The notes beneath the pieces were generated by a model. The model worked only from the letters and a program-made list of their open reading frames with translations, did not search any database and had not been told where the DNA came from. A DNA stretch of 37,189 nucleotides from a virus: IMG/VR virus record IMGVR_UViG_3300030012_002207, positions 1 to 37,189 of that record, one strand, 5' to 3'. This document shows, piece by piece, positions 2,800 through 36,496 of this stretch. Numbering within the stretch: position 1 is the first letter of the stretch; every line of letters starts with the position of its first letter. The translations under genes and the position numbers were made by a program.

Positions 2800-4566
2800 T
2801 TATCCCTCGCAACTTAGACAACCTTCTTGTTCAAAGATTATCTCTCTTTTTACTTCGTTAGATACATTATCTGCACGACTGATTGCTTCACTTCGTAAAT
2901 AGTAAAGCGTTTTCATATTTTTAGCCCATGCTAACATATGTGCGTTATGCAAATCTCCTTTATTTACATCAGGGGGAAAGAATAAATTTACGCTCTGTGA
3001 TTGACAAATAAACTCTTGTCTCATACTTGCGTGTTCTATCACCCATGCCTGATTTATTTCAACAGCAGTTTTAAAAACATTTTTTTCTTCTGGTGTTAAA
3101 AATTCTAAATGCTGTACACTTCCTCTGTTAGTAATAATACTCTGCCATGTTTCAGAAGTGTTTTCATTATACTTTTCTAATACTTTTTCTAAGTATTTAT
3201 TTTTGTGCAAATGAGAACCAGATTTAGTTTTCTGCGTGTATGCATTTGCACGAAAAGGCTCAATACTTGGACTAGTATTACCACATATAATTGAACTACT
3301 TGCATTAGGAGCGATAGCCAATAAATGTGCATTTCTTACTGATGCAGTATCATCATCAGGGCAAGCCCCTCTCTCTACTGCAAGTTTTCTAGTTGTTTCA
3401 TCTGCCTTTTCTTTTATGTAACTAAACATTTTCATGTTGTTACTTGTTGCCCACATACCTTCAAAGGGTACATTTGTCTTTTGTAAATACGCATGGAATC
3501 CCATCGCGCCTAATCCTATACTGCGTTCTCTCATAGCACTAAATCGTGCTTTTTCAAGTTGTGGAGGAGCAGTATCAATAAAAACTGTTAGAACATTATC
3601 TAACATTCGTACTAAGTCAGGTATAAATGCTGGAATCTTTGACCATTCATCAAAATACTCTAAGTTTACACTTGATAAACAGCATACAGCAGTTCTTTCA
3701 TCATTTGTTGCAAGAGTTATCTCAGAACAAAGATTACTATGATGTACTGATAATCCTTTTCTTTTTTGAAACTCAGGTAAATTTTCTTGTACAGCATCTT
3801 CAAACATAAGATATGGTTCTCCTGTTTCCATACGATTCTGTAATAATTTTACCCATAGTGTTCTTGCTGACACTATCTTTTTAACTTCTTGACTGTGTGG
3901 ATCAATAAGTGCCCAACTATCATCAAAGCCATCTTCTTTAGTTGCCCTATGTATGATTTGCATAAACGTATCAGGTATTACTACACCATGATGTAAGTTC
4001 AAACACTTACGATTTGTATCTCCACCTGTAGGCTTTCTTATATCTAAAAACTCTTCTATTTCGGGGTGGCTCATATGTAAGTATGAAGCATAGCTTCCCC
4101 TGCGAGTTACTCCCTGTGAAAATGCTAACATTTCTGCATCGACTACTTTCATAAAAGGTATAACGCCTGTGCTTTCAGATCCCTTAGAAGTTTTTGTACC
4201 TTGTGCTCGAACATCTGTCCAAGTGCCTCCAATACCTCCACCAAAAGACGAAAGATACGCATTTTCTGTATAGTGCTCTGTAATACCTTCTCGGCTATCG
4301 TCTACATAATTTAAAAAACAACTAATCGGTAAGCCTCTCTTAGTACCACCATTTGATAATACGGGAGTTGCAAACATAAACCATTGCTTACTAGCGTAGT
4401 CATACAATCTTTGTGCATGAGCCTCATCATCTGCAAATGCTTGAGCTGCTCGTGCAAAGGCTTCCTGAGGAGAAGTCTCGCCAGGAATCATATATCTTTC
4501 TTTTAGAGTTCTTAAACTAAACTCATCAAGTAAACTATCTTTACTGTAATCTATTTCTATTTTCAT
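2800..4566 (-). CDS. nrdA: Class Ia ribonucleotide reductase, alpha subunit (short form)
   Basis: 588 residues, clearly shorter than the roughly 750 of E. coli NrdA. The N-terminal ATP-cone activity domain is missing and the protein begins almost directly with the catalytic barrel. Active-site residues are visible: C83 (ISCFLN), the N278-x-C280-x-E282 triad (NLCSE) and the second redox Cys at 295/296 (CCLSS). The C-terminal tail ends in CLSCEG, the thiol pair that is re-reduced by thioredoxin or glutaredoxin. Loss of the cone should make the enzyme insensitive to dATP shut-down, as in other viral reductases (inference from the family). The start overlaps the end of the exonuclease gene by 26 bases. 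Confidence 0.96.
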   Translation of the reverse strand: MKIEIDYSKDSLLDEFSLRTLKERYMIPGETSPQEAFARAAQAFADDEAHAQRLYDYASKQWFMFATPVLSNGGTKRGLPISCFLNYVDDSREGITEHYTENAYLSSFGGGIGGTWTDVRAQGTKTSKGSESTGVIPFMKVVDAEMLAFSQGVTRRGSYASYLHMSHPEIEEFLDIRKPTGGDTNRKCLNLHHGVVIPDTFMQIIHRATKEDGFDDSWALIDPHSQEVKKIVSARTLWVKLLQNRMETGEPYLMFEDAVQENLPEFQKRKGLSVHHSNLCSEITLATNDERTAVCCLSSVNLEYFDEWSKIPAFIPDLVRMLDNVLTVFIDTAPPQLEKARFSAMRERSIGLGAMGFHAYLQKTNVPFEGMWATSNNMKMFSYIKEKADETTRKLAVERGACPDDDTASVRNAHLLAIAPNASSSIICGNTSPSIEPFRANAYTQKTKSGSHLHKNKYLEKVLEKYNENTSETWQSIITNRGSVQHLEFLTPEEKNVFKTAVEINQAWVIEHASMRQEFICQSQSVNLFFPPDVNKGDLHNAHMLAWAKNMKTLYYLRSEAISRADNVSNEVKREIIFEQEGCLSCEG

Positions 4567-5413: not shown

Positions 5414-5846
5414 TTATAAACCTCGGTTGTTCAAAGATTAGCCAATCCGTAGCTAAACTAACATAACAATCCAAGTGCTTTACATATACCCACCGTTCGA
5501 CTTTTTGTGGCTCATCTTGTTGTGCCACATATATTTTTGATCTATTATACTTAAAAAACAGAACAGGCTTTTGCTTTGCCTGTTCTGCTTGAGTTACTGC
5601 CTGTGTCCACCATTTTATGAATTGATTAGATGTTGTACTAATTACTTTGTCAGTAAAATGATTATCTTTATAATTTTTTACTTCTATACAGTAATTGTTC
5701 TCTTTATTGGGTACAAACAAATCTCCTTTCATATATTCAAGTGCACCTGACATGGGTACTCTTTCAAAGTCTAGGTTAGTATGTGTTTTAAGTAAATCTC
5801 TTACTTGACGCTCTCCTGCCGCGCCTTTTGCTCTTGGGTCTACCAT
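5406..5846 (-). CDS. Hjc-like PD-(D/E)xK nuclease (probable Holliday junction resolvase)
   Basis: 146 residues. The N-terminus KGAAGERQVRDLL supplies the first acidic residue, KGDLFV the second and CIEVKNY the E-x-K, in the order seen in archaeal Hjc-type resolvases and related phage endonucleases. Its place between the flap nuclease and the SbcCD pair fits a role in resolving branched replication intermediates. Other PD-(D/E)xK endonucleases share these motifs, so the exact substrate is less sure than the fold. Coordinates touch the groES-like gene by one base. Confidence 0.8.
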   Translation of the reverse strand: MVDPRAKGAAGERQVRDLLKTHTNLDFERVPMSGALEYMKGDLFVPNKENNYCIEVKNYKDNHFTDKVISTTSNQFIKWWTQAVTQAEQAKQKPVLFFKYNRSKIYVAQQDEPQKVERWVYVKHLDCYVSLATDWLIFEQPRFING

Positions 5847-6181
5847 TAATCTTCTTCTACGAATAGAATATCTTTTTCTGTTAATATTACATAAAAGTCA
5901 TCTTCGACTTTTAACTTTCTCTGTGCAGCGTGCCATTCAAAATACACTCTGTCACCTACTTTTACTTCGAAGGGAACTTCAAATCCAGTTTTAGTAAGTC
6001 TGGAATAATCTCCTACACCTACTACTTCGCCACTATTATCAAGTCTCCGCGATGAATCAGGAATAATTATCCCTCCACTCGTTTCTTTTGACTCAACTTT
6101 ACCACGTTTTATGATAATATTGTCTCTTATTGGTCTTGGAACGCTCTCTACTTCGATATAATCACTTCTTACCTGTGCCAT
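5846..6181 (-). CDS. GroES-like co-chaperonin (cpn10)
   Basis: 111 residues. RPIRDNIIIKRGKVESKETSG followed by GIIIPDSS matches the cpn10 N-terminus and the mobile loop that docks onto GroEL. EVVGVGDYSR, KVGDRVYFEW and a C-terminal ILTEKDILFVEE complete the fold. No GroEL gene is visible, so it should work with the host chaperonin, as T4 gp31 does for its capsid protein. It sits oddly inside a DNA-repair operon rather than with structural genes. Confidence 0.88.
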   Translation of the reverse strand: MAQVRSDYIEVESVPRPIRDNIIIKRGKVESKETSGGIIIPDSSRRLDNSGEVVGVGDYSRLTKTGFEVPFEVKVGDRVYFEWHAAQRKLKVEDDFYVILTEKDILFVEED

Positions 6182-8185: not shown

Positions 8186-9116
8186 GAAATATTCCTAAAA
8201 TTTGTGTTACTGTCTCATCTTTTAATTCCAGAATATAACTTAGATATTCTGCTAGCTCCTCTTCCATTGTCATATCTGAATCTAATATTAGAGTTGCTTC
8301 TGTTTTTCTTTTTACTACTTTTTTATCTAGTAGTTCTGTATTTTTAATAAGTGAAAGATCGGCAACATCTCCCTCTAGCTCATAGATCGTATAGTCGTAT
8401 GTAGTTGGGATCATAGCGTTCGGATCTGTTACCGTCTTTCTAATTAGTTGTGGTAGATTAAACTCTTTCCATTCCCATTGCCAACTAGCCTCATCAATTA
8501 ATAAGTATCCTGTTTGCACTTTTGTTCTGTGAAACTGAGTAGACATTGGACTACCAGGGTATACAATATTTAATTGAGTATTAGAGTGACTATGCAAATC
8601 TCCTGCAAATACTACTGGAAACTGTGCCAGTTTATTTAAATCTATCTCAGGAGATACATGAGGTGGTATAGAGCCTCTCACATGAGTGAATAAAGGCTTT
8701 CGTATATCTAAGTCTAATACTGGATTCCACTTTTTATGTAAATAACAATACGGTAATATACTGTATTGATCTGTTACTGTTATTTCATCTATAACTGTAA
8801 CTAAAGGATTTAATCTTTGAGTTGCAGATTTTAGTTGTGTAAAGAATGTTTTATTTTTTCTAGTAGCTTCATGGTTCCCATCAAATATAATTGTAGGAAT
8901 AGTTACTCCACTAATAAAATCGAAATATAACTCTAACTCAGGCATTGATGGTAACCTATCAAATAGATCACCACCAATAATATGTAAATCACACTTATGT
9001 TCTGTGATTGCCTGTCCTACTTGTTCAAAAAATAGTTTATATCGATTTATAGCCCACTCTGTAGGTACGTTCTTTTGTCCTAACTTTACGTGCCAATCTG
9101 CTGTAAATAAAATCAT
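8154..9116 (-). CDS. sbcD: SbcD/Mre11-like nuclease subunit (T4 gp47 type)
   Basis: 320 residues. The calcineurin-like phosphoesterase motifs appear in order: FTADWHVKLG at the N-terminus, GGDLFDR near 50, DGNHEA near 80 and FAGDLHSHS near 175. These carry the Asp, His and Asn metal ligands of Mre11. It pairs with the ATPase downstream, and the gene order D then C with overlap is the usual one. The start overlaps the DoxX gene stop by 4 bases. Confidence 0.94.
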   Translation of the reverse strand: MILFTADWHVKLGQKNVPTEWAINRYKLFFEQVGQAITEHKCDLHIIGGDLFDRLPSMPELELYFDFISGVTIPTIIFDGNHEATRKNKTFFTQLKSATQRLNPLVTVIDEITVTDQYSILPYCYLHKKWNPVLDLDIRKPLFTHVRGSIPPHVSPEIDLNKLAQFPVVFAGDLHSHSNTQLNIVYPGSPMSTQFHRTKVQTGYLLIDEASWQWEWKEFNLPQLIRKTVTDPNAMIPTTYDYTIYELEGDVADLSLIKNTELLDKKVVKRKTEATLILDSDMTMEEELAEYLSYILELKDETVTQILGIFHDNSKNAEVG

Positions 9117-9556
9117 ACTCCGTACCTAGCATTTCCTCTGAGAGCAAAGTATAAGCCACCTACATACAAACTTACATGTAAGTAGTCTCTCCAAATTACA
9201 TCCCATAAACTATTTGGGCTCATTAGCCATAAAACTCCTGTCACAACACAAGTCATAGTAATACCACTAAATCTAGTAAGTAAGTCTCCAATATTCCAAA
9301 TAATATTTTGTGAAGTCTCACCAAACCATTTATGCGTAGGTATAATACCAATTACACCTCCGACTATGAGTCCAATAGCAGATCCTATTTCACCATAGGT
9401 TACAAACCACCAAACAATATATGGTAGATTCCACATCTCTGCTACTGCTCCATCTACTGGGAACTTACTAAGTCCTTGTTGTAAGAACATCACACTAAGT
9501 GGTATTCTTAATAAAAATGTAGCAAGCGGTGCTGCTACTTTTGGTATGTATTTCAT
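9113..9556 (-). CDS. DoxX-family inner membrane protein
   Basis: 147 residues with about four hydrophobic helices. The N-terminus RIPLSVMFLQQGLSKF has the arrangement of the DoxX family, whose members are membrane proteins linked to respiratory, sulfur or redox metabolism. The second and third helices carry GEIGSAIGLIVGGVIG and TMTCVVTGVLWLM. It lies between a peroxiredoxin gene (2-base gap) and sbcD (4-base overlap). DoxX proteins are often partnered with thiol-redox enzymes in cells, so the pair may act together; this is inference. It is unusual cargo for a phage. Confidence 0.82.
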   Translation of the reverse strand: MKYIPKVAAPLATFLLRIPLSVMFLQQGLSKFPVDGAVAEMWNLPYIVWWFVTYGEIGSAIGLIVGGVIGIIPTHKWFGETSQNIIWNIGDLLTRFSGITMTCVVTGVLWLMSPNSLWDVIWRDYLHVSLYVGGLYFALRGNARYGV

Positions 9557-9558
9557 AT

Positions 9559-10071
9559 CTATCCTACTAATTTATCTCCAGGTGTCCAAGCACACCCTGT
9601 TAATCCTCCTTCTTGAATCGCTAATAAAGTTCTATGAATCTCTTTAGCGTCTCTGCCTGTATCTAAGCAATTTACTGATACGTGCTTAACTATATTATTT
9701 GGATCAATAATATATGTTGCTCTATAATGGACTCCTTCCTCTTCACTTACGATTCCAAGTTCATACCCTAAAGCCATGCCAGAATCTGCGGCAAGAGTAT
9801 GCTTAAGAGAACCAATAGGTGAGTTAGGTTGTTGTTTCCAAGCAAGTTTACAAAATTCATTGTCTCCACTTACTCCAATAACCTGTGCATCATCTACTAA
9901 TTGATCAAAAGCTACAATCTCTGTAGGGCAAATGAAAGTAAAATCTTTGGGGTAAAAATACATTACTGTCCATTGTGAGTCAATGTCAGCTTGAGTTATC
10001 CCAGCGATAGTATTATCACTTTCACAAGTTGCCATTGTGAACTCGGGAAACTCTTGTCCAACTGTTACCAT
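9559..10071 (-). CDS. 2-Cys peroxiredoxin (AhpC/TSA family)
   Basis: 170 residues. FYPKDFTFICPTEIVAF holds the peroxidatic Cys (C48) with the PxxxT/SxxC active site of peroxiredoxins. C160 in the C-terminal GLTGCAWTPGD is placed as the resolving cysteine. The protein should reduce H2O2 or organic peroxides using a host thioredoxin-type donor. Length and motifs are intact. It is translated from the leftward DNA-metabolism operon between the ssDNA-binding protein and DoxX, so it would be made early, perhaps protecting RNR and the Fe-S enzymes during infection. Confidence 0.94.
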   Translation of the reverse strand: MVTVGQEFPEFTMATCESDNTIAGITQADIDSQWTVMYFYPKDFTFICPTEIVAFDQLVDDAQVIGVSGDNEFCKLAWKQQPNSPIGSLKHTLAADSGMALGYELGIVSEEEGVHYRATYIIDPNNIVKHVSVNCLDTGRDAKEIHRTLLAIQEGGLTGCAWTPGDKLVG

Positions 10072-18034: not shown

Positions 18035-18760
18035 TTAGCTGGACGCTTTTTCTTTTCTTGCTGCACCATCATAGTCTGCACAAGCAAGACCTCTTCTGGT
18101 TAGCATAGTTTTGACACCTCTGACTGTTTTGCCAATCTCATCAGCAATCTGGTCAACTGTGTGCTCAGAGATATCCCCTAGCGCAGTAAGTGCATCTACT
18201 TTAGAAGCAGCTGTACTTTCTCTTTGAGAAGGGATAGCGTCTATCTCACCTGTTCTTAGGAAAGAAAGAGCTTTACCTCTGATTGAATTTACAGGCTTGC
18301 CAAGAGCATCAGCGATGTCCTCAACAAAAGCCCCGTCACCTACCATTTGTAAGAATGTAGCTTCTTCAGACTCTGTGTAAGTTCTGACTGAAGCAGGTTT
18401 CTCAGTAGGTTTAACGTGATCTGTCAATTCCATAGAAAGAATCTTTCCTTGAATTGATTTAGCACTATATTTGCCTCCTTCGAAGGCACTAGCAATCTCT
18501 GCATATGTGTAGTTACCAGAGTTATCTGATACAAATGCTGATAAAGTTGCTTCCTCCTGCTCAGAAAAAGTTCTAGTAGAAACTGAAGATGCGAGTTCAA
18601 CCTCGAATCCCATTTTTCTTAATTTAGAACTAACTGATCTAGGAGATGTTTCAAGCTGCTCAGCTGCTTCTGCAACTGTTGCTTGAGATACGGGTGATTC
18701 TCCACCCACGAACTCTGTTAATTCTTGAGTTCTTTCGTCTGTCCACTTAGGTACTGCCAT
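18035..18760 (-). CDS. Four-module helix-turn-helix (Myb/trihelix-like) DNA-binding protein
   Basis: 241 residues from ATG 18760 (SD GGAG). Four related helical modules can be seen: WTDERTQELTEFV to PRSVSSKLRKMGF; FSEQEEATLSAFV to AKSIQGKIL; YTESEEATFLQMV to VNSIRGKALSF; and a last one ending TVRGVKTMLTRRGL. Each ends in a basic recognition-type helix with S-(V/I)-x-x-K. It is the largest member of a family found at least six times in the window. A role as regulator or nucleoid-type DNA binder is inferred. It precedes the helicase, with a terminator in between. Confidence 0.78.
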   Translation of the reverse strand: MAVPKWTDERTQELTEFVGGESPVSQATVAEAAEQLETSPRSVSSKLRKMGFEVELASSVSTRTFSEQEEATLSAFVSDNSGNYTYAEIASAFEGGKYSAKSIQGKILSMELTDHVKPTEKPASVRTYTESEEATFLQMVGDGAFVEDIADALGKPVNSIRGKALSFLRTGEIDAIPSQRESTAASKVDALTALGDISEHTVDQIADEIGKTVRGVKTMLTRRGLACADYDGAARKEKASS

Positions 18761-19526
18761 TATTTTCTCCAATTAGCTGTTTTATGTTTGTTACTATTCT
18801 TATTCCTTTTGATTCTGCTGACTTTGTTTTACTAGAAGCTATGCCACTTTCATTGACTAGGATTGTTACATCTTTTGTTAAAGTATCCTTTACTCGATAT
18901 CCATATTTCTCTAATTCCATTTTTGCTTCTGCTTTCGTTTTATAGGAAGTCAAGCGTCCTGAGATACAAACTACTTCGTTTATATCTACGACTGGTACTC
19001 CTTCGAAAATATCTGCCTTCCATGTGAAAGGTAAAGTTTTATATCTGTTTTTGTATTCTTTATTATACCAACTACAGATATTAGTTGTAACTTTTGGACC
19101 TAACCCTGCTTCACTACATCTCTTCTCGCTGATTTCTTCGACGTGTGAAATCTTATCGCATAATTTTTGAGAAGCTGTAGATCCAAAAAGTGGAATAGCA
19201 AAAGCAGGTAGTAACTCTTGAAGGTTAGCATTTTTACTTAATTCTATCTCATTTACTAACTTCATTGCTAGTTTTTCTGAACCTAGCTTTTGTTCTATTC
19301 GTTCTTGTGTCAGCTCGTATATATCTTCTATACACTCTAAACCAAGTTTTTCTATGGTCTTTGTTCCAAGACCTTTGATTCTAAGAGTCTTAGCAAAACC
19401 TTCCACGATCTTTGAATTTTTTGCTGGGCAACTTGTGTTGTTGCAGTAGAGCTGATCATTTATCAGCTCTAATTCGGTTTGGCATGAAGGACATACCTCT
19501 GGAATTTCAATCGCTTGTTGTTTCAT
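18747..19526 (-). CDS. NAD-dependent DNA ligase, C-terminal subunit (Zn finger, HhH, BRCT)
   Basis: 259 residues. It has a four-Cys zinc finger (C12, C15, C28, C33), helix-hairpin-helix repeats (KTLRIKGLGTKTIEKLGLE) and a C-terminal BRCT domain (VVCISGRLTSYKTKAEAKMEL). Together with the separate adenylation subunit upstream it rebuilds a complete LigA, as in phage T5, where the enzyme is also in two genes. It has its own promoter (19551-19579) and a leader of about 18 bases. It overlaps the HTH gene by 14 bases. Confidence 0.92.
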   Translation of the reverse strand: MKQQAIEIPEVCPSCQTELELINDQLYCNNTSCPAKNSKIVEGFAKTLRIKGLGTKTIEKLGLECIEDIYELTQERIEQKLGSEKLAMKLVNEIELSKNANLQELLPAFAIPLFGSTASQKLCDKISHVEEISEKRCSEAGLGPKVTTNICSWYNKEYKNRYKTLPFTWKADIFEGVPVVDINEVVCISGRLTSYKTKAEAKMELEKYGYRVKDTLTKDVTILVNESGIASSKTKSAESKGIRIVTNIKQLIGENNGST

Positions 19527-21624: not shown

Positions 21625-21981
21625 TTAATCGTTTACTGAGTTAATAACTCCAGCTAGATACTGTGCTGCTTTGCCTGACAGCTTTGATATAATATCCATG
21701 TCGGGTTCTTGTCCTGCGTCTGAGATAGCACCAGCAAGTTCTTGATGCATAGCATCTTTACTTACTCTACCGCCTCCTGTCTTTCCGCCTGATGAACCAC
21801 CTGCTGAAGGATTCTTTTTAACATATACTCCAGCTCTAGTAAGTATCATTCTGACTCCGTTCGGGCTCTCGCCTAACTCCTCAGCTATGTCTTTTACTAT
21901 CTCCATACTTGTTTCTGGAGTAGCTCCTGCTTCGGTATACATATTAACTGCTTGTTCTTTCGATTCGTCTGTCCAAGCCAT
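21625..21981 (-). CDS. Myb/trihelix-like DNA-binding protein (paralogue)
   Basis: 118 residues from ATG 21981 (MAWTDESKEQAVNMYTEAG), chosen for its SD (GGAG 8 bases upstream) and because three paralogues also begin MA-x-(W/Y)T. The frame is open to ATG 22062, which would lie exactly at the transcription start and add 27 Arg-rich residues. N-terminal module ends SPNGVRMILTRAGVYVKK. After a Gly/Ser linker a second module (VSKDAMHQEL to AAQYLAGVINS) matches the C-terminal module of the proteins at 31642 and 34589. Confidence 0.75.
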   Translation of the reverse strand: MAWTDESKEQAVNMYTEAGATPETSMEIVKDIAEELGESPNGVRMILTRAGVYVKKNPSAGGSSGGKTGGGRVSKDAMHQELAGAISDAGQEPDMDIISKLSGKAAQYLAGVINSVND

Positions 21982-22068
21982 TCTTCGTCTCCGTTTTGTA
22001 CCTCGATAGCCAGGGCAAGAGCCTGTTGCTTCGAGTTGTTGTTGATAAAATCTGTCTCCCATATTTAT

Positions 22069-24008: not shown

Positions 24009-24139
24009 ATCTCTCCTCTTTCTTTTTCTATAGCTATCTGTTCTGCTATCTCTACACCAAATAGTTTTTTATCCTCTCTCCAAGCTTCTACTTCTGCAAA
24101 GGCTTGTCTATGGTGCGCAGGTATTGTTCTTTTCTTCAC
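24005..24139 (-). CDS. 44-residue charged protein with GTG start
   Basis: Begins at GTG 24139 inside the TAGTG junction with the MazG-like gene; GGGGGA lies 7 bases upstream. The product, which includes IPAHHRQAFAEVEAWREDKK, is an amphipathic charged helix. The stop overlaps the ATG of the next gene. Tight packing on both sides supports it. No function is known. Confidence 0.6.
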   Translation of the reverse strand: MKKRTIPAHHRQAFAEVEAWREDKKLFGVEIAEQIAIEKERGEI

Positions 24140-24549
24140 TATATATCCCCCACTTTTCTAACTTCTGATCGTGCTACTTCGAAACCATTTGGGTATCTGG
24201 CTTCTAGTTTTTTAATATTTTCTTCCATGACTTCTTGTGGTGTAAAACCAAGTGCTGTACAGCCTTGTACCCAATACCACAATACATCTCCTAGTTCTCT
24301 TTTAAGATGATATCTTTCATCTTCATTGTATGGTTTTCCTTGAAATATAATTTTCTTAATTACTTCTGAAAACTCACCTGATTCAGCTTGCATACCTATG
24401 GAAGCTGTGAGTAGTTGCGACCACTCTGTATCTGATTCATACCCCAAACTAACGAGTTTTCCTACTAAAGATGAAGTAGATAAACTCTCATCTGAGGTTG
24501 TACTGATTACGAACTTTGCGTAATCATTAAATTGTTTTGTCTCTGTCAA
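24139..24549 (-). CDS. MazG-like nucleotide pyrophosphohydrolase
   Basis: 136 residues. The all-alpha NTP pyrophosphatase motif is visible: MQAESGEFSEVIKKIIFQG (E-x-x-E) followed by KRELGDVLWYWVQGC (E-x-x-D), which bind Mg and the nucleotide. Phage MazG proteins are proposed to hydrolyse dNTPs or (p)ppGpp; which one cannot be told here. It overlaps the upstream small gene by 23 bases. Confidence 0.85.
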   Translation of the reverse strand: MTETKQFNDYAKFVISTTSDESLSTSSLVGKLVSLGYESDTEWSQLLTASIGMQAESGEFSEVIKKIIFQGKPYNEDERYHLKRELGDVLWYWVQGCTALGFTPQEVMEENIKKLEARYPNGFEVARSEVRKVGDI

Positions 24550-24709
24550 TCTTTTTCTCCACTAATTCTATTACCCTATCCTTCGAATATCTTAACCCTG
24601 AGAACATTTGTCTATCACCATTTGTGTACTCTACATGATATCTTTTGTAACCAAAAGGTCTTGTAGAAAAGATTCTAGCATCTCCTAAATTTTCTTCTAG
24701 TAATCTCAT
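24527..24709 (-). CDS. Small basic hypothetical protein
   Basis: 60 residues (MRLLEENLGDARIFSTRPFG...), with a beta-like YKRYHVEYTNGDRQMFSG. It overlaps the cytochrome gene stop by 4 bases (ATGA) and the MazG-like start by 23. Translation coupling is likely; no family is recognised. Confidence 0.7.
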   Translation of the reverse strand: MRLLEENLGDARIFSTRPFGYKRYHVEYTNGDRQMFSGLRYSKDRVIELVEKKIDRDKTI

Positions 24710-25146
24710 TTGCTTGGTGCTCCTTCTTCTATAAATTGTCCTATTATATCTATCTGAGCGTCAGACAGCATAGCTGCTTGTCCCCACATTGTAGAGGACA
24801 TTGGTCCGACTTGCTCTTTGTTTTTATAAGCATTTAGTTTTCCTACTATGTAGTCTTTACTTTGTCCTACTAGCTTTGGAAACATACCTATTCCTTCACC
24901 TTTCTGTCCATGACAAGCAGCACAACCTGCCCATAAACCTCGAATATCACTAAACGGGTCTCCAGCGGCAAGCTGTTTCTTTCTTCTTTCCATGTCAGCA
25001 GGTGTACCAAAATTTCTTACATACTCTTCATAGCACTCTCCATAACAAGACTCGTTTCTATCCATAGATAAATCGTTTCCACTTGTATATAAAAAGGTAC
25101 TCAATAGTAGTATTGGTCCTCCGACTCCTAATACGAACTCTCTCAT
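24706..25146 (-). CDS. Class I c-type cytochrome
   Basis: 146 residues. An N-terminal hydrophobic segment (FVLGVGGPILLLSTFLY) serves as signal anchor. The haem-binding motif is C75-A-A-C78-H79 (AGCAACHGQKGEG), followed by PKLVGQSKDYIVGKLNAYK and, near 116-127, PMSSTMWGQAAMLSDAQI, which offers the axial Met and the usual LSDxQ turn. The pattern is that of small periplasmic cytochromes c. Two extra Cys (34 and 38) lie before the domain. The host Ccm system would attach haem. It overlaps both neighbours by 4 bases, so it is a genuine operon member. Confidence 0.9.
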   Translation of the reverse strand: MREFVLGVGGPILLLSTFLYTSGNDLSMDRNESCYGECYEEYVRNFGTPADMERRKKQLAAGDPFSDIRGLWAGCAACHGQKGEGIGMFPKLVGQSKDYIVGKLNAYKNKEQVGPMSSTMWGQAAMLSDAQIDIIGQFIEEGAPSK

Positions 25147-25715
25147 CTTGTTATCCTGTTTTCATAGTCTGCCAGTTCTTCATCCCACCACTCAGGTTTA
25201 TCTCTTCCTTTCCAACTCGCAAAGGTTGCTTTGTCGAAATGGTAGAAGTCGCGATACGACTGTATGGCATCATCGGATTTAAGATCATCTGGCATTGCCA
25301 TTGCAAAAGGTGTAAGTCCGCTTCTTGGTATATGTTTAAGGTCAGGTAATCTGAGAACCACCTCCTGCACGGATTTATGTGTCTTTCCATACCTATACCC
25401 ATACTCGTCATTGAGGGCGAGTGCATAGCAGTATAACCACTCGTAGTTGTCGAGTGATTCTCTTGCCCATATAGTGCAAGGGTGGTTATGCATAGTAGGG
25501 AGGTAAGGAACATAACGTGGTTCTTTGACTTTGACCTCTCGTAATAATTGTAATTCATTTTTATTTAGTTTCCTCGGTACATATCCTAGAAAATGATCTA
25601 TCCAATGTGTGGTGCATAACATCTGTGCTGCCTCCAAAGGCATCTTTACAATATGCTTGTCTACATGGTATTCTGCACACTTGTCAATGTCATGGTCTAA
25701 GATAAAAATATTCAT
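25143..25715 (-). CDS. Conserved marine-phage protein, unknown function
   Basis: 190 residues. The N-terminus MNIFILDHDIDKCAEYHVDK, then HIVKMPLEAAQML, is typical of a family often seen in cyanophages and other marine phages. Later motifs are TMHNHPCTIWARES, YRYGKTHKS and a C-terminal YRDFYHFDKATFASWKGRD. Conserved Asp, His, Lys and Cys look catalytic, but no activity is known to me. ATG 25715 lies exactly 7 bases after the -10 box: the mRNA is predicted to be leaderless. It is the first gene of the operon containing the cytochrome. Confidence 0.85.
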   Translation of the reverse strand: MNIFILDHDIDKCAEYHVDKHIVKMPLEAAQMLCTTHWIDHFLGYVPRKLNKNELQLLREVKVKEPRYVPYLPTMHNHPCTIWARESLDNYEWLYCYALALNDEYGYRYGKTHKSVQEVVLRLPDLKHIPRSGLTPFAMAMPDDLKSDDAIQSYRDFYHFDKATFASWKGRDKPEWWDEELADYENRITR

Positions 25716-26597: not shown

Positions 26598-26787
26598 TCT
26601 TTATCATTTTTAGCCATTCAAACCCTGGCTCGTCTATATTGATAGGTGTTGCATCTATGCCATACACCTGATTATTTGTAATCCATATGCTGTCTTGTGT
26701 TAGTGCTTCGTGTAGCCAATCACTTGGCGTTTGCTCTTTGCTAGGCTCGCACTCTATAAAAAGTTTAAACTCATATATTTGTTTCAT
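26575..26787 (-). CDS. Small acidic hypothetical protein
   Basis: 70 residues (MKQIYEFKLFIECEPSKEQT..., then WLHEALTQDSIWITNNQVYG). Beta-rich at the N-terminus, charged C-terminus. GGGAG lies 6 bases before the ATG. The start lies inside the upstream membrane gene by 17 bases. The function is unknown. Confidence 0.75.
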   Translation of the reverse strand: MKQIYEFKLFIECEPSKEQTPSDWLHEALTQDSIWITNNQVYGIDATPINIDEPGFEWLKMIKNDKDSKK

Positions 26788-27094
26788 TTTTCTCCCAGCT
26801 TACTAGCCACTTTGCATTGTTCTGTCTTGCTTCTTTGAATACTAAGTTAGTTATAAAAATTGGAATAACTATACTAAAGTGTATCCAAATTGAACTTACA
26901 ATGCTATAGTTTTTCCACTCTAACCATGCCCATGCAACTATTCCAAAGTATGCACTCCACATAGTAAAGAGTGCCATAGTAAAATATAACTGCATCGAAG
27001 GTTCTTTAATATAGCTTAGAGGATTATATCTATTGTCCATAATAATCTGCCAGCTATTTACTGTAAATAATATTCCCTTTTTTATTAATTTCAT
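26771..27094 (-). CDS. Two-helix membrane protein, lysis region
   Basis: 107 residues. Two hydrophobic stretches (LYFTMALFTMWSAYFGIVAW and IHFSIVIPIFITNLVF) are separated by a short loop, and both ends are basic or polar. SD AGGAG precedes the ATG; a 4-base overlap joins it to the o-spanin gene. It could be a holin component or an inner-membrane regulator of lysis. Confidence 0.78.
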   Translation of the reverse strand: MKLIKKGILFTVNSWQIIMDNRYNPLSYIKEPSMQLYFTMALFTMWSAYFGIVAWAWLEWKNYSIVSSIWIHFSIVIPIFITNLVFKEARQNNAKWLVSWEKNETNI

Positions 27095-27477
27095 TCCTGC
27101 TCCTGTTTTGGCATAGTCACTTTTCGATAATATACTACTACATCTTTCATCTCTGTAATATACCTTTTGAGTTCTTGCATATTATATGCCATAACTTCAT
27201 AGTCTGGTATTGACATTGCAAGAAAGATAACTTCTCCTTCTTGCTCTTTAATATCTGTTAAAAATGTATCTAAATTTTTCTCTGTTACTGCAAACCACTT
27301 CGGCTCTTTGAGATCAATCTCTCGTGGCATTACGGGTTGTACGATTGTACGGTCTAACGGTTTGGCGTCAATCTCTATTCGTTTATTTCCCAGCATGCTG
27401 CAACTGGAGACCATCATCGAGATCGTCAACAGTAACACTAAGTTTTTCGATATCCTCGAATATGTGCTTTGTTCCAT
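27091..27477 (-). CDS. Probable o-spanin (outer-membrane lipoprotein)
   Basis: 128 residues with a lipoprotein signal: a basic start, hydrophobic LVLLLTISMM and lipobox VSSC at about residues 23-26. The mature part is long for an o-spanin (about 100 residues) and includes PLDRTIVQPVMPREIDL, a Pro-containing linker typical of Rz1-like proteins. Its first 95 bases overlap the i-spanin gene in another frame, the classical Rz/Rz1 arrangement. Role: fusion of inner and outer membranes at lysis. Confidence 0.75.
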   Translation of the reverse strand: MEQSTYSRISKNLVLLLTISMMVSSCSMLGNKRIEIDAKPLDRTIVQPVMPREIDLKEPKWFAVTEKNLDTFLTDIKEQEGEVIFLAMSIPDYEVMAYNMQELKRYITEMKDVVVYYRKVTMPKQEQE

Positions 27478-27778
27478 TATTAATTTTCCTTTCCATTTTT
27501 ACTGGATCTTCCAGTATCTTTGCTGATAACTCATAGTTAGCGATAAACTGTGAGTATCTGTTTAGCTCTCGTTGAGCTTGCTGGCTCAATAAGGTTTGTT
27601 GTTTTAAGGCTTCTGTCTGTAATGTGAAGTCCGCTTGCAAACTTGCTATCGCTTCCTTCTGAGTTGCAACAGCACCTTCAAGTGCTAAATTGTTTGCTAC
27701 TAGTTTTTGGTTTTCTCCATACAACCACCAGCAACCTACTCCTAATATTATTACTAGCCCTACAAAAAATTGATTCAT
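27383..27778 (-). CDS. Probable i-spanin (Rz-like)
   Basis: 131 residues with an N-terminal membrane anchor (FFVGLVIILGVGCWWLYG) and a long periplasmic coiled coil (ATQKEAIASLQADFTLQTEA and on), which is the Rz layout. The C-terminal part overlaps the o-spanin gene. Its position directly after the lysozyme block supports the call. Confidence 0.78.
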   Translation of the reverse strand: MNQFFVGLVIILGVGCWWLYGENQKLVANNLALEGAVATQKEAIASLQADFTLQTEALKQQTLLSQQAQRELNRYSQFIANYELSAKILEDPVKMERKINNGTKHIFEDIEKLSVTVDDLDDGLQLQHAGK

Positions 27779-28014
27779 AATTGTTCTATCCTATAGTTTA
27801 GTCCATCGGCTCCTCGTATTTCTACTACATCACCTTTGTCGGTTACAAACTTTAAATACTTTTCTTTTCTCTTGTGAAACCTTTTGACTATAAACTCTTG
27901 GTCATCTTGATCACCCCAAGTGTTATTGTAACTAACCTTGAGAGCATATCTTGGAAACAGTTTATATTTTATCCAATATAAAAACCTTTTCAATAGTGCT
28001 TTTATTTTGTCCAT
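27775..28014 (-). CDS. Small basic hypothetical protein, lysis region
   Basis: 79 residues: basic amphipathic N-terminus (MDKIKALLKRFLYWIKYKLF), then a beta-type domain (LKVSYNNTWGDQDDQEFIVK and VVEIRGADGLNYRIEQL). It overlaps the lysozyme stop by 13 bases and the i-spanin start by 4. The basic amphipathic helix could sit on the membrane. The function is unknown. Confidence 0.78.
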   Translation of the reverse strand: MDKIKALLKRFLYWIKYKLFPRYALKVSYNNTWGDQDDQEFIVKRFHKRKEKYLKFVTDKGDVVEIRGADGLNYRIEQL

Positions 28015-28427
28015 AAATCTGCCTCTGCTTGTCTGCGTCTCGTAAGTCCTGCTAAAACTTTACCAGACGCTTTGTTCCACCTTAACATTTCTGATGGAAC
28101 AGAATTCTTATCCCCTGCATTTAATTTTTTCAGAAGTGTACTACTATTTAAGTTTCCTACTCCTAAATTATATGTCCATGATGTCAACGCATCAAACTCA
28201 CTCTGTGTGAGATCAACTTGAACAACACCTAATACTTGTTGTCCAAACTCTTCTAATTCTTCTAATAAGTCTCTTTCTGCCTGTAGCTCTGTGACTTTAT
28301 CACCCTCTTGTACATTCCTAGTACGACCATACCCTATCGTCCACACGTTTGCAGGACAAAGATATGCTTCACTCTCGAATCCTTCGAAGTGTTTAACTAA
28401 TTCTACACAATCTTTACTTGGTTTCAT
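28002..28427 (-). CDS. GH24 lysozyme (endolysin)
   Basis: 141 residues from ATG 28427, which forms an ATGA overlap with the Fe-S carrier stop; the frame extends upstream to 28457 without support. HFEGFESEAYLCPANVWTIG gives the catalytic set E15-8x-C24-5x-T30, the variant of the lysozyme triad in which Asp is replaced by Cys. DALTSWTYNLGVGNLNSSTL and RRRQAEADLW are the other family motifs. No signal or SAR helix is evident, so release should depend on a holin. Confidence 0.92.
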   Translation of the reverse strand: MKPSKDCVELVKHFEGFESEAYLCPANVWTIGYGRTRNVQEGDKVTELQAERDLLEELEEFGQQVLGVVQVDLTQSEFDALTSWTYNLGVGNLNSSTLLKKLNAGDKNSVPSEMLRWNKASGKVLAGLTRRRQAEADLWTK

Positions 28428-28729
28428 GAAAATCCCATTGAAACACCACACCCACATGCACTTACTACATTTGGATTGTGTATCTCAAATCCTGTCTCTA
28501 CTAAGTTCTCCTTCCAGTCAATGATTGAGCCATGAAGATATCCCATGCTGTGCATATCTATAACTAGTACGTCTTCAATCACATGATCGCTTTGAGGAGA
28601 GATAGAGTCTGCTATATCCCAGAGATATTGGAAGCCATTGCAACCTCCACCAGAAAGAGAGAGGCGGAGCAAATCCTTGCCCAGCCTCTCTGTGATTTTA
28701 TTCTTTGCTAATTCTGTTATTGTTATCAT
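28424..28729 (-). CDS. A-type iron-sulfur cluster carrier (IscA/ErpA/HesB family)
   Basis: 101 residues from ATG 28729 (MITITELAKNKITERL); an upstream in-frame ATG at 28789 adds an unrelated N-terminus. The three cluster-binding cysteines are present: C30 in SLSGGGCNGFQYLWD, and C92 and C94 in SACGCGVSMGF. The protein should receive Fe-S clusters and pass them to apo-enzymes. It is placed between lysozyme and a small membrane protein, not with DNA genes. Confidence 0.92.
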   Translation of the reverse strand: MITITELAKNKITERLGKDLLRLSLSGGGCNGFQYLWDIADSISPQSDHVIEDVLVIDMHSMGYLHGSIIDWKENLVETGFEIHNPNVVSACGCGVSMGFS

Positions 28730-28757
28730 AAATATAACTTTAAAAGACCTAGTTATC

Positions 28758-28901
28758 TCAACTTGCCCAAGACATAAACATAACTGCAAACCAGATACCT
28801 ACTACTGCAGGTAGTAAATATAGTAATGTAGTTATACGATGTCGGATGTGTCTCAACGTTTCCAAAGAATTACCACTTGTAACTCTATGTAACACTTTCA
28901 T
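28758..28901 (-). CDS. 47-residue single-pass membrane protein
   Basis: N-terminal half basic with several His (LHRVTSGNSLETLRHIRHRI), C-terminal hydrophobic helix (TTLLYLLPAVVGIWFAVMFM). The ATG at 28901 is only one base from GGAG, too close. The GTG two codons later (28895) has a 7-base spacing and is an equally good start, giving 45 residues. The function is unknown. Confidence 0.65.
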   Translation of the reverse strand: MKVLHRVTSGNSLETLRHIRHRITTLLYLLPAVVGIWFAVMFMSWAS

Positions 28902-28936: not shown

Positions 28937-29359
28937 TTAAACGATATCTATTATTTTTGGTCTTTTTTCTTCTGGTATCTCCACATGAAGGTCTATTGTT
29001 AGCATGCCGTCAATAAACTCTGCCTTGTCGACTATTACATCATCTGTAATAGTAAAAGCTCTTTTAAAAGCTTTTCTTGTTATCCCTCTATGTAGATATG
29101 ACTCGTCTGCCACATCTTTCAGATTCTTTTCTCCACTTATCTCGAGTTTACCATCAACCCTTTCGATTGTTATATTCTCTTTTTTGTAACCCGCAAGTGC
29201 AAATTCTATTTGATATTGCTCTCCGTCTTTTGTTACATTGAATCGTGGATACGATTTATCTTCGTATGTAGGCATTGAAGCGAACCTTTCGAAAAAACGA
29301 TCTGCTCCAATCCATGACCTGTGAAGGTCGTGTATTGTGGGTAATGTTCTAACTACCAT
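28937..29359 (-). CDS. Small heat-shock protein (Hsp20/alpha-crystallin)
   Basis: 140 residues from ATG 29359 (MVVRTLPTIHDLHRSW), with AAAGGAG at good spacing. The alpha-crystallin core runs from YPRFNVTKDGEQYQIEFALA through KKENITIERVDGKLEISGEK to the signature ending IDGMLTIDLHVEIPE, with a C-terminal KRPKIIDI anchor of the I-x-I type. Phage Hsp20s are common in marine T4-like phages. A holdase role during infection is inferred. Confidence 0.94.
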   Translation of the reverse strand: MVVRTLPTIHDLHRSWIGADRFFERFASMPTYEDKSYPRFNVTKDGEQYQIEFALAGYKKENITIERVDGKLEISGEKNLKDVADESYLHRGITRKAFKRAFTITDDVIVDKAEFIDGMLTIDLHVEIPEEKRPKIIDIV

Positions 29360-29440
29360 AATTTTTCTCCTTTGTCTCCTTTCGGACGACATCTGTGAGA
29401 CCCTTTCGGCATCTCGGTTAATAAAAATCCCATGTACTGA

Positions 29441-31359: not shown

Positions 31360-31649
31360 ATTTTATTGGACTCCTCGTACGTAAATGGTAGTGAAATGCT
31401 ATAGGGATTCCTAATTTCGCCTACCCACTTGAAATCTTTAGCCACGACGGCTGGTGTAACCCAAGATGCCCACTCTACTATTGCAAGTTCATCTCTCAGT
31501 AACGAACCTTCACAATACTTTTCAATAAACGTCTCGGCTTCGGCTGCTAGATAATGCAACCTTCCTTCTTCATCCTTTGCGACTGCAAAAGCGTGTCCTT
31601 CTTTATTCTTTACAGATGCTAGTATCTCTCCCATAAATGCGTCAGTCAA
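31356..31649 (-). CDS. Hypothetical protein with TTG start
   Basis: 97 residues. The best start is TTG 31649 because a perfect AGGAGG lies 5 bases upstream; an internal ATG at 31634 has no SD. Contains EILASVKNKEGHAFAVAKDE and FIEKYCEGSLLRDELAIVEW; acidic, globular. It overlaps the HTH gene stop by 8 bases. The function is unknown. Confidence 0.75.
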   Translation of the reverse strand: MTDAFMGEILASVKNKEGHAFAVAKDEEGRLHYLAAEAETFIEKYCEGSLLRDELAIVEWASWVTPAVVAKDFKWVGEIRNPYSISLPFTYEESNKI

Positions 31650-31971
31650 TGTCGACCTCCTCACTTATCAAGTCTAAAAGGTACTTTAAATCAGCCTTTG
31701 GAGCCTTCTCTAAACCCATCAGTTTATTACTATCGCCCACAAGATTTTGAGCAATCATGTTGACCATCTGCTTTTTAGTTACAGGTCGTTGTCCTGTTTT
31801 GGATAGATACTCAGCCTTTTTATACACACCTTCTCTCGAAAGTTTGCCAATCACAGACTTCACACTCTTATCCATTTCTTTTGCTATAATCTCTACTGTT
31901 TCCCTTGTAGGCTCAGCAGTATACCATGCAATCATAACTTCTACTTGTTCGTCAGTATAATTAGCTGCCAT
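31642..31971 (-). CDS. Myb/trihelix-like DNA-binding protein (paralogue)
   Basis: 109 residues from ATG 31971 (MAANYTDEQVEVMIAWYTAE), with GGAG upstream. N-terminal module: EIIAKEMDKSVKSVIGKLSREG then VYKKAEY; C-terminal module VTKKQMVNMIAQNLVG to DLKYLLDLISE. It is the closest relative of the protein at 34589-34945; both modules align without large gaps. A regulator or DNA-organising protein is inferred. It overlaps both neighbours. Confidence 0.82.
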   Translation of the reverse strand: MAANYTDEQVEVMIAWYTAEPTRETVEIIAKEMDKSVKSVIGKLSREGVYKKAEYLSKTGQRPVTKKQMVNMIAQNLVGDSNKLMGLEKAPKADLKYLLDLISEEVDID

Positions 31972-32167
31972 AACTACTCTCTCCATCCCAACTAAAATTC
32001 TTAGCAATCTTTTTCTCAAAGTACGCATCTACAAGAGATATTGCTAAGTATTCGACCATATTAAATTCATCAGAAATAACTTGCACTATCTCTGGTTCTG
32101 AGAGTCCTTTTACATCTAACTCGTCAATTCTTTCAGTCATCTCGAACATTCTTTTTGTTCCTGACAT
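31961..32167 (-). CDS. Small acidic hypothetical protein
   Basis: 68 residues (MSGTKRMFEMTERIDELDVK...), with LSEPEIVQVISDEFNMVEYL, a helical pattern like a short winged or UBA-type helix bundle. SD AAGGAG precedes the ATG. It overlaps the HTH gene by 11 bases. Unknown. Confidence 0.75.
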   Translation of the reverse strand: MSGTKRMFEMTERIDELDVKGLSEPEIVQVISDEFNMVEYLAISLVDAYFEKKIAKNFSWDGESSYGS

Positions 32168-32811: not shown

Positions 32812-33018
32812 TTAATACTTTTTTGCATCAGGTAGCTCTAATTCCTCATGAATAGCTACTATACTTACCTGCCACTCATCTCTTGCTCCAATTCTTTTTG
32901 CATCACCCTCAGTCTTTTCTTCTAACTTGAGAATCAAATCATTCTCATCTGATGCTATAATTCTTAATGTTTTTGTTCGTGTAAAGTCTTGCTCTATCTC
33001 AACGTCATATACCTTCAT
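32812..33018 (-). CDS. Small acidic hypothetical protein
   Basis: 68 residues (MKVYDVEIEQDFTRTKTLRI...), beta-rich, with a helix SDENDLILKLEEKTEGDAKR. Pattern resembles small phage proteins of ferredoxin-like build, but no family is assigned. A perfect SD (AAGGAG) precedes the ATG, and it overlaps the PPK2 stop by 14 bases. Confidence 0.78.
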   Translation of the reverse strand: MKVYDVEIEQDFTRTKTLRIIASDENDLILKLEEKTEGDAKRIGARDEWQVSIVAIHEELELPDAKKY

Positions 33019-33640
33019 GTTCTCTCCTTAGTATGTCTACTACTTTAGTTATTAAAGATAGTCGCCCAGCAACTTTATTATTGTAATCTATCGTATGCCA
33101 CTCGCCACATTGTGTGAGGACTCGTTCTTTTAGAATAGTCATCTGGTCATACTTTGATAACGCAATCGCATCATTTGGGGAGAACTTCCACTTTTTCAAA
33201 GGGCATACCTGTCTGTTAGCAAGTCTTGCACTCTGTTCTTCCTCAGAGATTGAAAGCCATAGCTTGATGAATGTTACATCTCTCTGTTTGTTTTCCCACT
33301 CGTTTACTTCTTTCATAAACTTGGTGTATTGTTTCTCAGAGCACCAGCCATTTAGATGCTGAACCATTGCTCTTGAATACCAACTTCTGTCAAAGAATAC
33401 GATTTGATTATTGCTAGGCAACTTCTTTTTCCAAGACTTAAGCCAATGTTTCATAGCCCAAGCACTTGGTTTGTTGCTTAACGAAACGGAGTACTTATTT
33501 GTTGGTAGATAGTGCGTCAACTCACGAATAGTTCCCGACTTACCTGCTGTGTCTCTACCTTCTAGTATTACAGCTACACGTCCAAAATCTTTCTCAACTA
33601 TCTCGTTGAGTAATACTTGTTGTAGTTCTAGTTTTGTCAT
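33005..33640 (-). CDS. ppk2: Polyphosphate kinase 2 (PPK2 family)
   Basis: 211 residues from ATG 33640 (SD GGGAGA; the frame is open to 33655). Diagnostic motifs in order: VILEGRDTAGKSGTIREL (Walker A, residues about 25-41), SNKPSAWAMKHW, VFFDRSWYSRAMV (Walker B and lid, near 82-94), LWLSISEEEQSARL, and PLKKWKFSPND followed by the YDQMTILKERVLTQ helix. PPK2 enzymes transfer phosphate between polyphosphate and nucleoside mono- or diphosphates. It is short but complete over the catalytic core. In this phage it could make NTPs or dNTPs from host polyphosphate; the direction is inferred. Confidence 0.92.
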   Translation of the reverse strand: MTKLELQQVLLNEIVEKDFGRVAVILEGRDTAGKSGTIRELTHYLPTNKYSVSLSNKPSAWAMKHWLKSWKKKLPSNNQIVFFDRSWYSRAMVQHLNGWCSEKQYTKFMKEVNEWENKQRDVTFIKLWLSISEEEQSARLANRQVCPLKKWKFSPNDAIALSKYDQMTILKERVLTQCGEWHTIDYNNKVAGRLSLITKVVDILRREHEGI

Positions 33641-33641
33641 A

Positions 33642-33716
33642 TTAGTATCTCCCATTTGTATTGTTAAACATAATCCACAGAATTAGAATAATTACTAACG
33701 CTATTCCTAATTCCAT
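33642..33716 (-). CDS. 24-residue membrane micro-protein upstream of PPK2
   Basis: MELGIALVIILILWIMFNNT and four more residues. The ATG lies inside the end of the preceding gene, and the TAA is one base from the PPK2 ATG, so it may couple translation. The PPK2 SD is contained in its last codons. The weak SD (AAAGAG) keeps confidence moderate. Confidence 0.45.
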   Translation of the reverse strand: MELGIALVIILILWIMFNNTNGRY

Positions 33717-34588: not shown

Positions 34589-34945
34589 CTACGACTGTAC
34601 TGCTGCGAATAAAAGTTCTAAGTCAGTCTTGGAAGCCTTGACTAGAGTTGGAAACTCAGCCCCTAACTCTTGTTGTATCATTCCTACTAAGTCCGACTTT
34701 CTGACCACAGGTTTCCCTGCTTTGGTCTGCCTTTCTTGAGCGACGTATACGCCTTCTCTACTTAGTTTGGCAATGATGCTTCTCGCACTTTTACCGAACT
34801 TTTCTGCCAGAGCATCGACTGTTGCTCTTGTTGGGTCAGCTTTATATATGCTAACCATTTGTTCTACTTGTTCATCTGTATAATTAGTTGTTGTTGCCAC
34901 TTCTGGTTTTCTCCTTAATTTATTAATTATGTCCGTGAATTTCAT
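34589..34945 (-). CDS. Myb/trihelix-like DNA-binding protein (paralogue)
   Basis: 118 residues from ATG 34945, 8 bases after the -10 box, so the mRNA is leaderless or nearly so. Alternatively it starts at GTG 34900 (AAGGAG upstream), giving (M)ATTTNYTDEQVEQMVSIYK like its paralogues. N-terminal module: LAEKFGKSARSIIAKLSREG then VYVAQE; C-terminal module VVRKSDLVGMIQQELG to DLELLFAAVQ. Very close to 31642-31971 and matched in the C-terminal module by 36209-36496. Confidence 0.82.
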   Translation of the reverse strand: MKFTDIINKLRRKPEVATTTNYTDEQVEQMVSIYKADPTRATVDALAEKFGKSARSIIAKLSREGVYVAQERQTKAGKPVVRKSDLVGMIQQELGAEFPTLVKASKTDLELLFAAVQS

Positions 34946-35935: not shown

Positions 35936-35964
35936 TTGACTTATCTCGCGTTTTGTGGTATAAT
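35936..35964 (+). promoter_or_regulatory. Strong rightward promoter P1 (extended -10)
   Basis: TTGACT (35936-35941), 17-base spacer, TATAAT (35959-35964) preceded by TGG, an extended -10 element. Start near 35971. It is followed by the repeat unit described at 35936-36035. Confidence 0.93.
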
Positions 35965-36035
35965 CCGCACTTATGTGGGCACGGCATCAGTTTTGCACTT
36001 CGTTTTTGCACTTTGGCGCGGAGCGCGCCTTTCTG
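35936..36035 (+). repeat. Promoter-plus-repeat unit, copy A
   Basis: The same module as 36546-36640: a promoter ending TTGTGGTATAATC, then two direct repeats TTTTGCACTT spaced 13 bases apart (35991 and 36004), then GGCGCG-GAG-CGCGCC (36015-36029). A 14-base palindrome GGCTTTGCAAAGCC follows at 36041-36054. Likely a duplicated regulatory element. Confidence 0.75.
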
Positions 36036-36131
36036 CAAACGGCTTTGCAAAGCCATTTGCGCCAATCAATACAATTTTTGCTGCCCCGATTCTTTTAGTG
36101 AAATTATTTTCTGTTTTTGGGCAAAAAGTTC

Positions 36132-36160
36132 TTGACATTTTTTCGGATTGCCCCTATAAT
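36132..36160 (+). promoter_or_regulatory. Perfect consensus rightward promoter P2
   Basis: TTGACA (36132-36137), 17-base spacer, TATAAT (36155-36160), with AAAAAGTTC upstream as in the leftward family. Start near 36167; leader of about 42 bases to ATG 36209. Confidence 0.95.
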
Positions 36161-36208
36161 TCTTTTATCGATTCGGGAATAGTCCCAAATCAAAATGGAG
36201 AATCAACA

Positions 36209-36496
36209 ATGGCATACACTAGCATACAAGAGCAAAAAATCAGGGACGCTGCCCCTATCGATAAAGCAGTAGCAGAAAAATTAGCATCAGAATTTGGCGT
36301 AACTTTAAGGTCAGTAATCAGCAAAGCAATCAACATGCAAGTTGAGTATATCAAAGAAGAAAGAACAAAGGCTCAGCCCAAAGTTCTCAAAGCTCAGATA
36401 GTCAAAGACATCGAGAAGGCTTTAGGTATCAACGCACACAGTTTAGTTAATGCTAATGCCAAAGACCTAGCGACACTGCTTGACGCAGTATCCTAG
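36209..36496 (+). CDS. Small DNA-binding protein of the trihelix-like family (paralogue)
   Basis: 95 residues from ATG 36209, with GGAG 9 bases upstream. The frame is open to 35936 but that part contains promoters P1 and P2 and is not coding. N-terminal part MAYTSIQEQKIRDAAPIDK to VTLRSVISKAINMQVEYIK; C-terminal module VLKAQIVKDIEKALGI to KDLATLLDAVS aligns with the proteins at 31642 and 34589. Driven by a perfect promoter and closed by a terminator: probably an early master regulator. Confidence 0.85.
   Translation: MAYTSIQEQKIRDAAPIDKAVAEKLASEFGVTLRSVISKAINMQVEYIKEERTKAQPKVLKAQIVKDIEKALGINAHSLVNANAKDLATLLDAVS

Follow-up and report, generated by a model that had tools for sequence, protein, structure and literature searches.

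Phage takeover of photosynthetic electron flow is textbook knowledge, and aerobic heterotrophs are far more numerous hosts than phototrophs. Among the described systems, cyanophages carry the genes for plastocyanin (petE) and PTOX, a pair thought to prevent a back-up of electrons (PMC3037559). On the respiratory side, a study of Indian Ocean viromes claims respiratory-chain genes in marine viruses on the basis of viral cbb3 oxidase reads (PMC3474794), and phage haem-synthesis genes have been proposed to support respiration (PMC11480375). A study of nitrogen genes in oxygen-minimum zones states that it saw no cytochrome electron carriers among its phages (PMC8115048).

Here, a cytochrome c gene is described in a 37,189-base IMG/VR virus record (the window, that is, the whole stretch of DNA that was analysed). 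The gene and the relevant parts of its product are:

24706-25146, minus strand: class I cytochrome c gene with an N-terminal hydrophobic segment (Pfam, PDB sequence matches, predicted fold)
25081-25137, minus strand: N-terminal hydrophobic segment, residues 4-22, signal anchor or signal peptide (hydropathy)
25033-25047, minus strand: Cys34-x3-Cys38 of the CYGECYEEY module (alignment of relatives)
24910-24924, minus strand: haem c attachment motif CAACH, residues 75-79 (sequence, alignment)
24787-24789, minus strand: distal haem ligand Met120 (alignment)

The reading frame starts with ATG, encodes 146 residues and matches Pfam PF00034 (Cytochrom_C) with 30.4 bits (E 1e-6), above the gathering score of 21.3 bits, a cut-off also passed in an independent six-frame scan. 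By sequence, the PDB entries closest to it are cytochromes c552, c554 and c4, and Met120 aligns with the Met of the c552/c554 cytochromes. The AlphaFold model has a mean pLDDT of 80, exceeding 90 over most of the haem domain and low at residues 1-34. The predicted fold matches class I cytochromes c, with 8yts (Z 13.5, 1.8 Å rmsd, 81 residues), 2zzs (Z 12.8, 1.7 Å, 79 residues), 4o1w (Z 12.5) and 1cno (Z 12.3) nearly tied. The most hydrophobic 19-mer spans residues 4-22 (mean Kyte-Doolittle 1.60), where the model places a helix (residues 2-23) with low confidence. The protein has the CxxCH motif, the C-terminal distal Met, the profile score and the fold of a class I cytochrome c. It falls outside the c552/c554 subfamily (single haem domain, cleaved signal peptide, no extra N-terminal module) because it carries an anchor and a C-x3-C-Y module. 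Pfam, fold and alignment agree with the sequence-only reading, which had proposed a class I cytochrome c with a CAACH motif, a downstream Met and an N-terminal hydrophobic segment, and the frame encodes a phage-borne, probably membrane-anchored protein of this class. In some family members the anchor may be cleaved, judging from the AMA that stands before the mature part in several sequences (e.g. L014, L020).

The window protein belongs to a large phage family. Scanning IMG/VR with it gave 65 loci, and scanning with their alignment matched 457 stretches, 450 of which encode a relative, numbers that do not represent independent species and come mostly from fragmentary contigs. Residues C34, C38, Y39, G47, C75, H79, P90 and G94 are invariant in all 103 distinct phage proteins, while C78 of the haem motif is kept in 102 of them. 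Met120, Trp121 and Gln123 are kept in every phage-family sequence covering them, and Met120 is also invariant in all Halieaceae and c5xx sequences that cover the position. The same reading had remarked on two extra cysteines, 34 and 38, as unusual. They are present and more than chance; rather than a peculiarity of one protein they are a family hallmark common to the Halieaceae homologues, as constant as the haem motif itself (103/103 phage and 16/16 Halieaceae proteins, 0/15 c5xx-type relatives). Why is this module so strictly kept? Simple electron carriage does not explain its invariance. The C-x3-C-Y may form a disulphide or a dimer link; alternatively, it may be a metal site. The phage cytochrome is under purifying selection, with a median dN/dS of 0.14 and a maximum of 0.29 in a simple pairwise estimate (Nei-Gojobori, 183 close pairs).

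PHROGs gives no match for the window cytochrome and one weak match among 40 family members, tblastn with two different family members found no relative in INPHARED phages, and the viral structure library returned no match with E < 0.001. With the family essentially absent from these resources, membership in a known phage protein family was rejected. PLSDB plasmids gave no match to the cytochrome. A defence system was likewise rejected, PADLOC giving no match. The open-access literature, a scope that leaves most subscription journals and preprints outside, yielded no earlier description of the phage family.

The surrounding genes that matter for the argument are:

25143-25715, minus strand: Pyr_excise/phrog_624 gene, upstream, overlapping the cytochrome by 4 bp (Pfam/PHROGs-type matches)
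24527-24709, minus strand: 60-aa gene, downstream, overlapping the cytochrome, with a homologue at the same place in four other contigs
24139-24549, minus strand: MazG-like pyrophosphatase of the cytochrome operon
1842-2798, minus strand: class I ribonucleotide reductase beta subunit
2800-4566, minus strand: class I ribonucleotide reductase alpha subunit

The cytochrome overlaps both of its neighbours by 4 bp, so that the packed operon of the sequence-only reading holds for this gene. Overlaps of 4 bp or 1 bp are found in most contigs: among all contigs with distinct cytochromes, 66 show an upstream gap of -4 or -1, and 55 a downstream gap of -4. Four independent contigs, L073, L075, L077 and L085, repeat the arrangement Pyr_excise/phrog_624, cytochrome, 60-aa gene, MazG; therefore, the window contig is not chimeric at the cytochrome, and an assembly chimera, against which that reading had cautioned, was rejected. 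The ribonucleotide reductase genes of the window lie 20 kb from the cytochrome, whereas in many other phage contigs the beta gene adjoins it.

The family occurs in two phage backgrounds. The window group has a PolA-type polymerase, gp46/47-like recombination genes and a class I ribonucleotide reductase. Other carriers are T4-like, with the usual order nrdA, nrdB, cytochrome, glutaredoxin; in one such record of 146 kb (G001), ORF inspection reveals structural and replication genes of T4 type. The nearest match to the major capsid protein of this record is that of Methylophilales phage Melnitz (68.5%), followed by Pelagibacter phage HTVC008M (64.2%), and the cytochrome was not found in the records of these two phages. 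A host search by near-DNA match gave no near match among phages for the first 12 kb.

Several other genes of the window deserve mention. A DoxX-family membrane protein and an adjoining peroxiredoxin gene occupy 9113-9556 and 9559-10071, and in some other contigs (such as L048) DoxX homologues immediately follow the cytochrome gene. A polyphosphate kinase 2 gene (33005-33655) could supply nucleotide triphosphates from polyphosphate. There are also genes for an A-type Fe-S carrier (ErpA/IscA-like), an Hsp20 and a GroES-like protein (28424-28789, 28937-29392 and 5846-6181, respectively), and for small, similar-looking HTH-like proteins (e.g. KSVKSVIGKLSREGVY) at 18035-18772, 21625-22062, 31642-32028, 34589-34945 and 35936-36496.

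Cellular relatives with the N-terminal Cys module were found, in our samples, only in Halieaceae. Scanning 84,980 species yielded six loci, four of them on contigs with phage genes and one (L072) a weak partial match; L071, from a MAG of Haliea sp., has bacterial neighbours. Because L067-L070 carry phage genes, their MAG labels (Sphingobacteriales, Planctomycetaceae, Synechococcus) were discounted as evidence for a host. When 61 Halieaceae (OM60/NOR5) genomes, sampled evenly from this one GTDB family, were searched with a profile, 16 proved to have a full-length homologue with E < 1e-27, far from the ordinary c4/c5-type hits near 1e-12. All 16 keep C-x3-C-Y. The 15 c5xx-type relatives compared lack both the N-terminal Cys module and a Trp after the axial Met. 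At the thresholds used, 398 Pseudomonadota and 369 gammaproteobacterial genomes gave no full-length homologue besides that of the Halieaceae query genome. Because the second residue varies in Halieaceae, a search of 294 genomes from the order for the exact CYGECYE codon pattern found it in only 1. The cytochrome neighbourhoods in Halieaceae are neither respiratory operons nor ribonucleotide reductase/glutaredoxin operons. Members of this family have been described with aa3 and sometimes cbb3 oxidases (PMC10100682).

The comparison with cellular cytochromes that the sequence-only reading had called for separates the phage proteins from both other groups. In a maximum-likelihood tree built on few columns, with weak inner forks, three groups separate: the phage proteins (96/80), the Halieaceae proteins (99/94) and the c5xx outgroup (100/97). 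The single phage clade implies that, as far as sampled, the cytochrome entered phages once and diversified there; its separation from the Halieaceae implies that the gene is long established in phages, and a recent pick-up from a host was rejected by this tree. On the simplest reading of these sequences, Halieaceae or a near relative would be the origin of the phage gene. The identity of the host does not follow from such an origin.

A second gene of the window may be connected to the cytochrome:

26771-27094, minus strand: small membrane protein of the MDNR/NPL family, with an invariant His72 in the second hydrophobic helix, a candidate partner

MDNR proteins are about 100-150 residues long and combine two hydrophobic helices with an N-terminal M-D/N-x-x-x-N-P-L motif and the invariant His. 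In 21 phage loci, their gene immediately precedes that of the cytochrome. Among the Halieaceae genomes, it is present in 16 of 61, 12 of which also carry the cytochrome (itself in 16 of 61), a co-occurrence with a Fisher p of 1.4e-6 when kinship is ignored, and it adjoins the cytochrome in four (G185, G268, G133, G367). A search of 273 further gammaproteobacterial genomes did not detect it. The wider MDNR-like family covers at least 576 IMG/VR stretches in addition to Halieaceae, and includes phages without the cytochrome, with weak matches that keep the His in Melnitz and Phage C48C1. The pairing is therefore not obligatory. No Pfam or NCBIfam family matches MDNR at a meaningful score, and Foldseek found no fold match in the PDB. 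In Halieaceae, a short, conserved segment at the N-terminus, LTPYEWEQWYAxxGVP, is fused to either DUF3429 or the MDNR membrane domain next to the cytochrome (L187:7217-7873, L071:5439-6086, L176:7224-7790). In the window, MDNR comes directly after a lysis cassette (27091-28457) consisting of a lysozyme (PF00959) and an overlapping membrane-protein/lipoprotein pair that is spanin-like.

Some relatives of the window phage encode an alternative oxidase (PF01786, 237.8 bits), an enzyme that drains quinol without proton pumping. Of the loci fetched, 21 contain it (15 stretches if distinct cytochromes are counted), and in L064, L143 and L147 its gene immediately follows that of the cytochrome, with a 4-bp overlap between the two genes in L143 and L064. 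L143 has MDNR, cytochrome and alternative oxidase in a row, each gene overlapping the next by ATGA. The phage oxidases group with those of three Halieaceae in a single clade (100/100) that is distinct from the common gammaproteobacterial type, and all three sampled Halieaceae carriers of the phage-type enzyme have the cytochrome. The window contains no alternative oxidase, nor does the stretch seen of most large carriers, many of which are fragments. With the phage enzyme as query, cyanophage PTOX was not recovered at E 1e-3. Phage genes of this kind are located at L143:8432-8995 (plus strand), L069:9366-9974 (plus strand), L064:10330 onward and in L151; in Phage C48C1 (OQ984149, 26249-26815) the alternative oxidase is annotated only as a hypothetical protein.

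We lean towards reading the cytochrome as an auxiliary metabolic gene for electron transport, carried by marine tailed phages, that keeps host respiration going. It has the attributes of such a gene: it is encoded in a phage genome, is under selection and has a cellular homologue. The preserved axial ligands and the fold favour an electron carrier whose maturation is left to the host. The N-terminal helix would tether the class I cytochrome to the outer side of the host's inner membrane, where host Ccm would attach one haem at CAACH, with His79 and Met120 as axial ligands. The protein would then carry electrons between respiratory complexes of the host, the simplest route being from bc1 to a cytochrome c oxidase of the aa3 or cbb3 type. 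Respiration, proton-motive force and quinone turnover would be sustained while the phage drives nucleotide and DNA synthesis, and a chain kept oxidised would presumably sustain the quinone-dependent steps of nucleotide synthesis. Related phages add a quinol-level outlet, the alternative oxidase, within the cytochrome operon. Haem attachment, export, the redox partner, the benefit to infection and the host are the elements of this account that we infer. The earlier suggestion that the cytochrome could keep electrons flowing to a terminal oxidase gains strength from the hundreds of relatives, the haem ligands kept under purifying selection and the alternative oxidase operons in some of the relatives.

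Does the cytochrome serve the host chain at all? It is possible, if unlikely, that cytochrome and MDNR, with the alternative oxidase where present, constitute a separate small quinol/thiol branch, perhaps directed against over-reduction or oxidative stress, in which the invariant His of MDNR would possibly bind haem b or quinone. The overlapping trio in L143, the placement of MDNR directly upstream in 21 loci and beside the cytochrome in four Halieaceae genomes, the location of His72 in a hydrophobic helix, and the peroxiredoxin and DoxX genes of the window are all consistent with such a branch. However, MDNR-like genes also occur in phages without the cytochrome, the haem b site is hypothetical, the structure search for MDNR was empty, and alternative oxidase, as a quinol-oxidising enzyme, can work without cytochrome c. 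It is decidedly less probable that the C-x3-C-Y is the working part, as a redox sensor or thiol enzyme, with the haem domain reading or setting the redox state and no bulk flow of electrons. Here the conservation of C34 and C38, at least equal to that of the haem motif (103/103) and common to Halieaceae, and the glutaredoxin gene next door in many phages have to be set against location, since glutaredoxin and ribonucleotide reductase are cytoplasmic whereas the haem c domain must be periplasmic; moreover, the protein retains the axial Met typical of electron carriers.

The long divergence of the phage lineage from the cellular one would also suit a decoy or inhibitor that competes with the host cytochrome and slows or reroutes respiration. 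We regard this as very improbable, given that all electron-transfer ligands are kept under purifying selection and that the oxidase co-encoded in relatives points to more, not less, oxygen use. As for a passenger host gene or an assembly chimera, a single contig would by itself exclude neither, and the nearest cellular genes are those of Halieaceae, but synteny in independent contigs, some 450 IMG/VR stretches, a single phage clade and purifying selection make this scarcely credible. Conversely, the electron-carrier reading has a bolder form, which we consider rather doubtful: marine phages of heterotrophs would carry a complete small respiratory branch (MDNR, an anchored cytochrome c whose C-x3-C is a redox or metal module, and alternative oxidase), the heterotroph equivalent of petE-PTOX, and the MDNR-cytochrome pair would be an undescribed redox complex derived from OM60/NOR5.

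The electron-carrier reading suggests that viruses keep host respiration running while they replicate, through a family common to hundreds of marine virus contigs. A phage-specific cytochrome c family, with alternative oxidase operons in some contigs, makes the manipulation of heterotroph respiration by phages directly testable and would tie viral infection to oxygen consumption in the surface ocean. It also draws attention to an uncharacterised pair of cytochrome and membrane protein in the OM60/NOR5 clade.

Compared with described systems, phage soxD (PMC8190135) is similar as a phage gene with c-type cytochrome motifs; it encodes a sulfane dehydrogenase subunit, is known from two contigs only and has motifs missing, whereas the window protein is a stand-alone small carrier with all ligands. 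The viral cbb3 data (PMC3474794) are, as described in that study, oxidase subunit sequence counts from a viral size fraction rather than a gene conserved in a phage operon. The c552/c554 cytochromes of marine gammaproteobacteria (PDB 1cno, 2zzs, 4o1w) resemble the phage family in the sequence and fold of the haem domain (27-37% identity, Z 12-13) and in CxxCH and Met; differently to the phage family, they lack the N-terminal anchor and the C-x3-C-Y module, and the relatives compared have no Trp after the axial Met. The Halieaceae anchored cytochrome (loci L156-L171) is alike over its full length, in the C-x3-C-Y module and in its MDNR partner, but is chromosomal, forms a separate clade and lies outside ribonucleotide reductase/glutaredoxin operons. 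The likeness to cyanophage photosynthesis genes that the sequence-only reading had drawn is apt, specifically for petE and PTOX: cytochrome and alternative oxidase together resemble the plastocyanin-PTOX pair in being a phage-borne carrier and a quinol-level oxidase, a combination thought to balance electron flow. It is a parallel in function and not membership, the window having the haem c carrier without the oxidase. The cyanophage pair places a Cu carrier in a photosynthetic chain, while the phages described here place a haem c carrier, presumably, in the aerobic respiration of heterotrophs.
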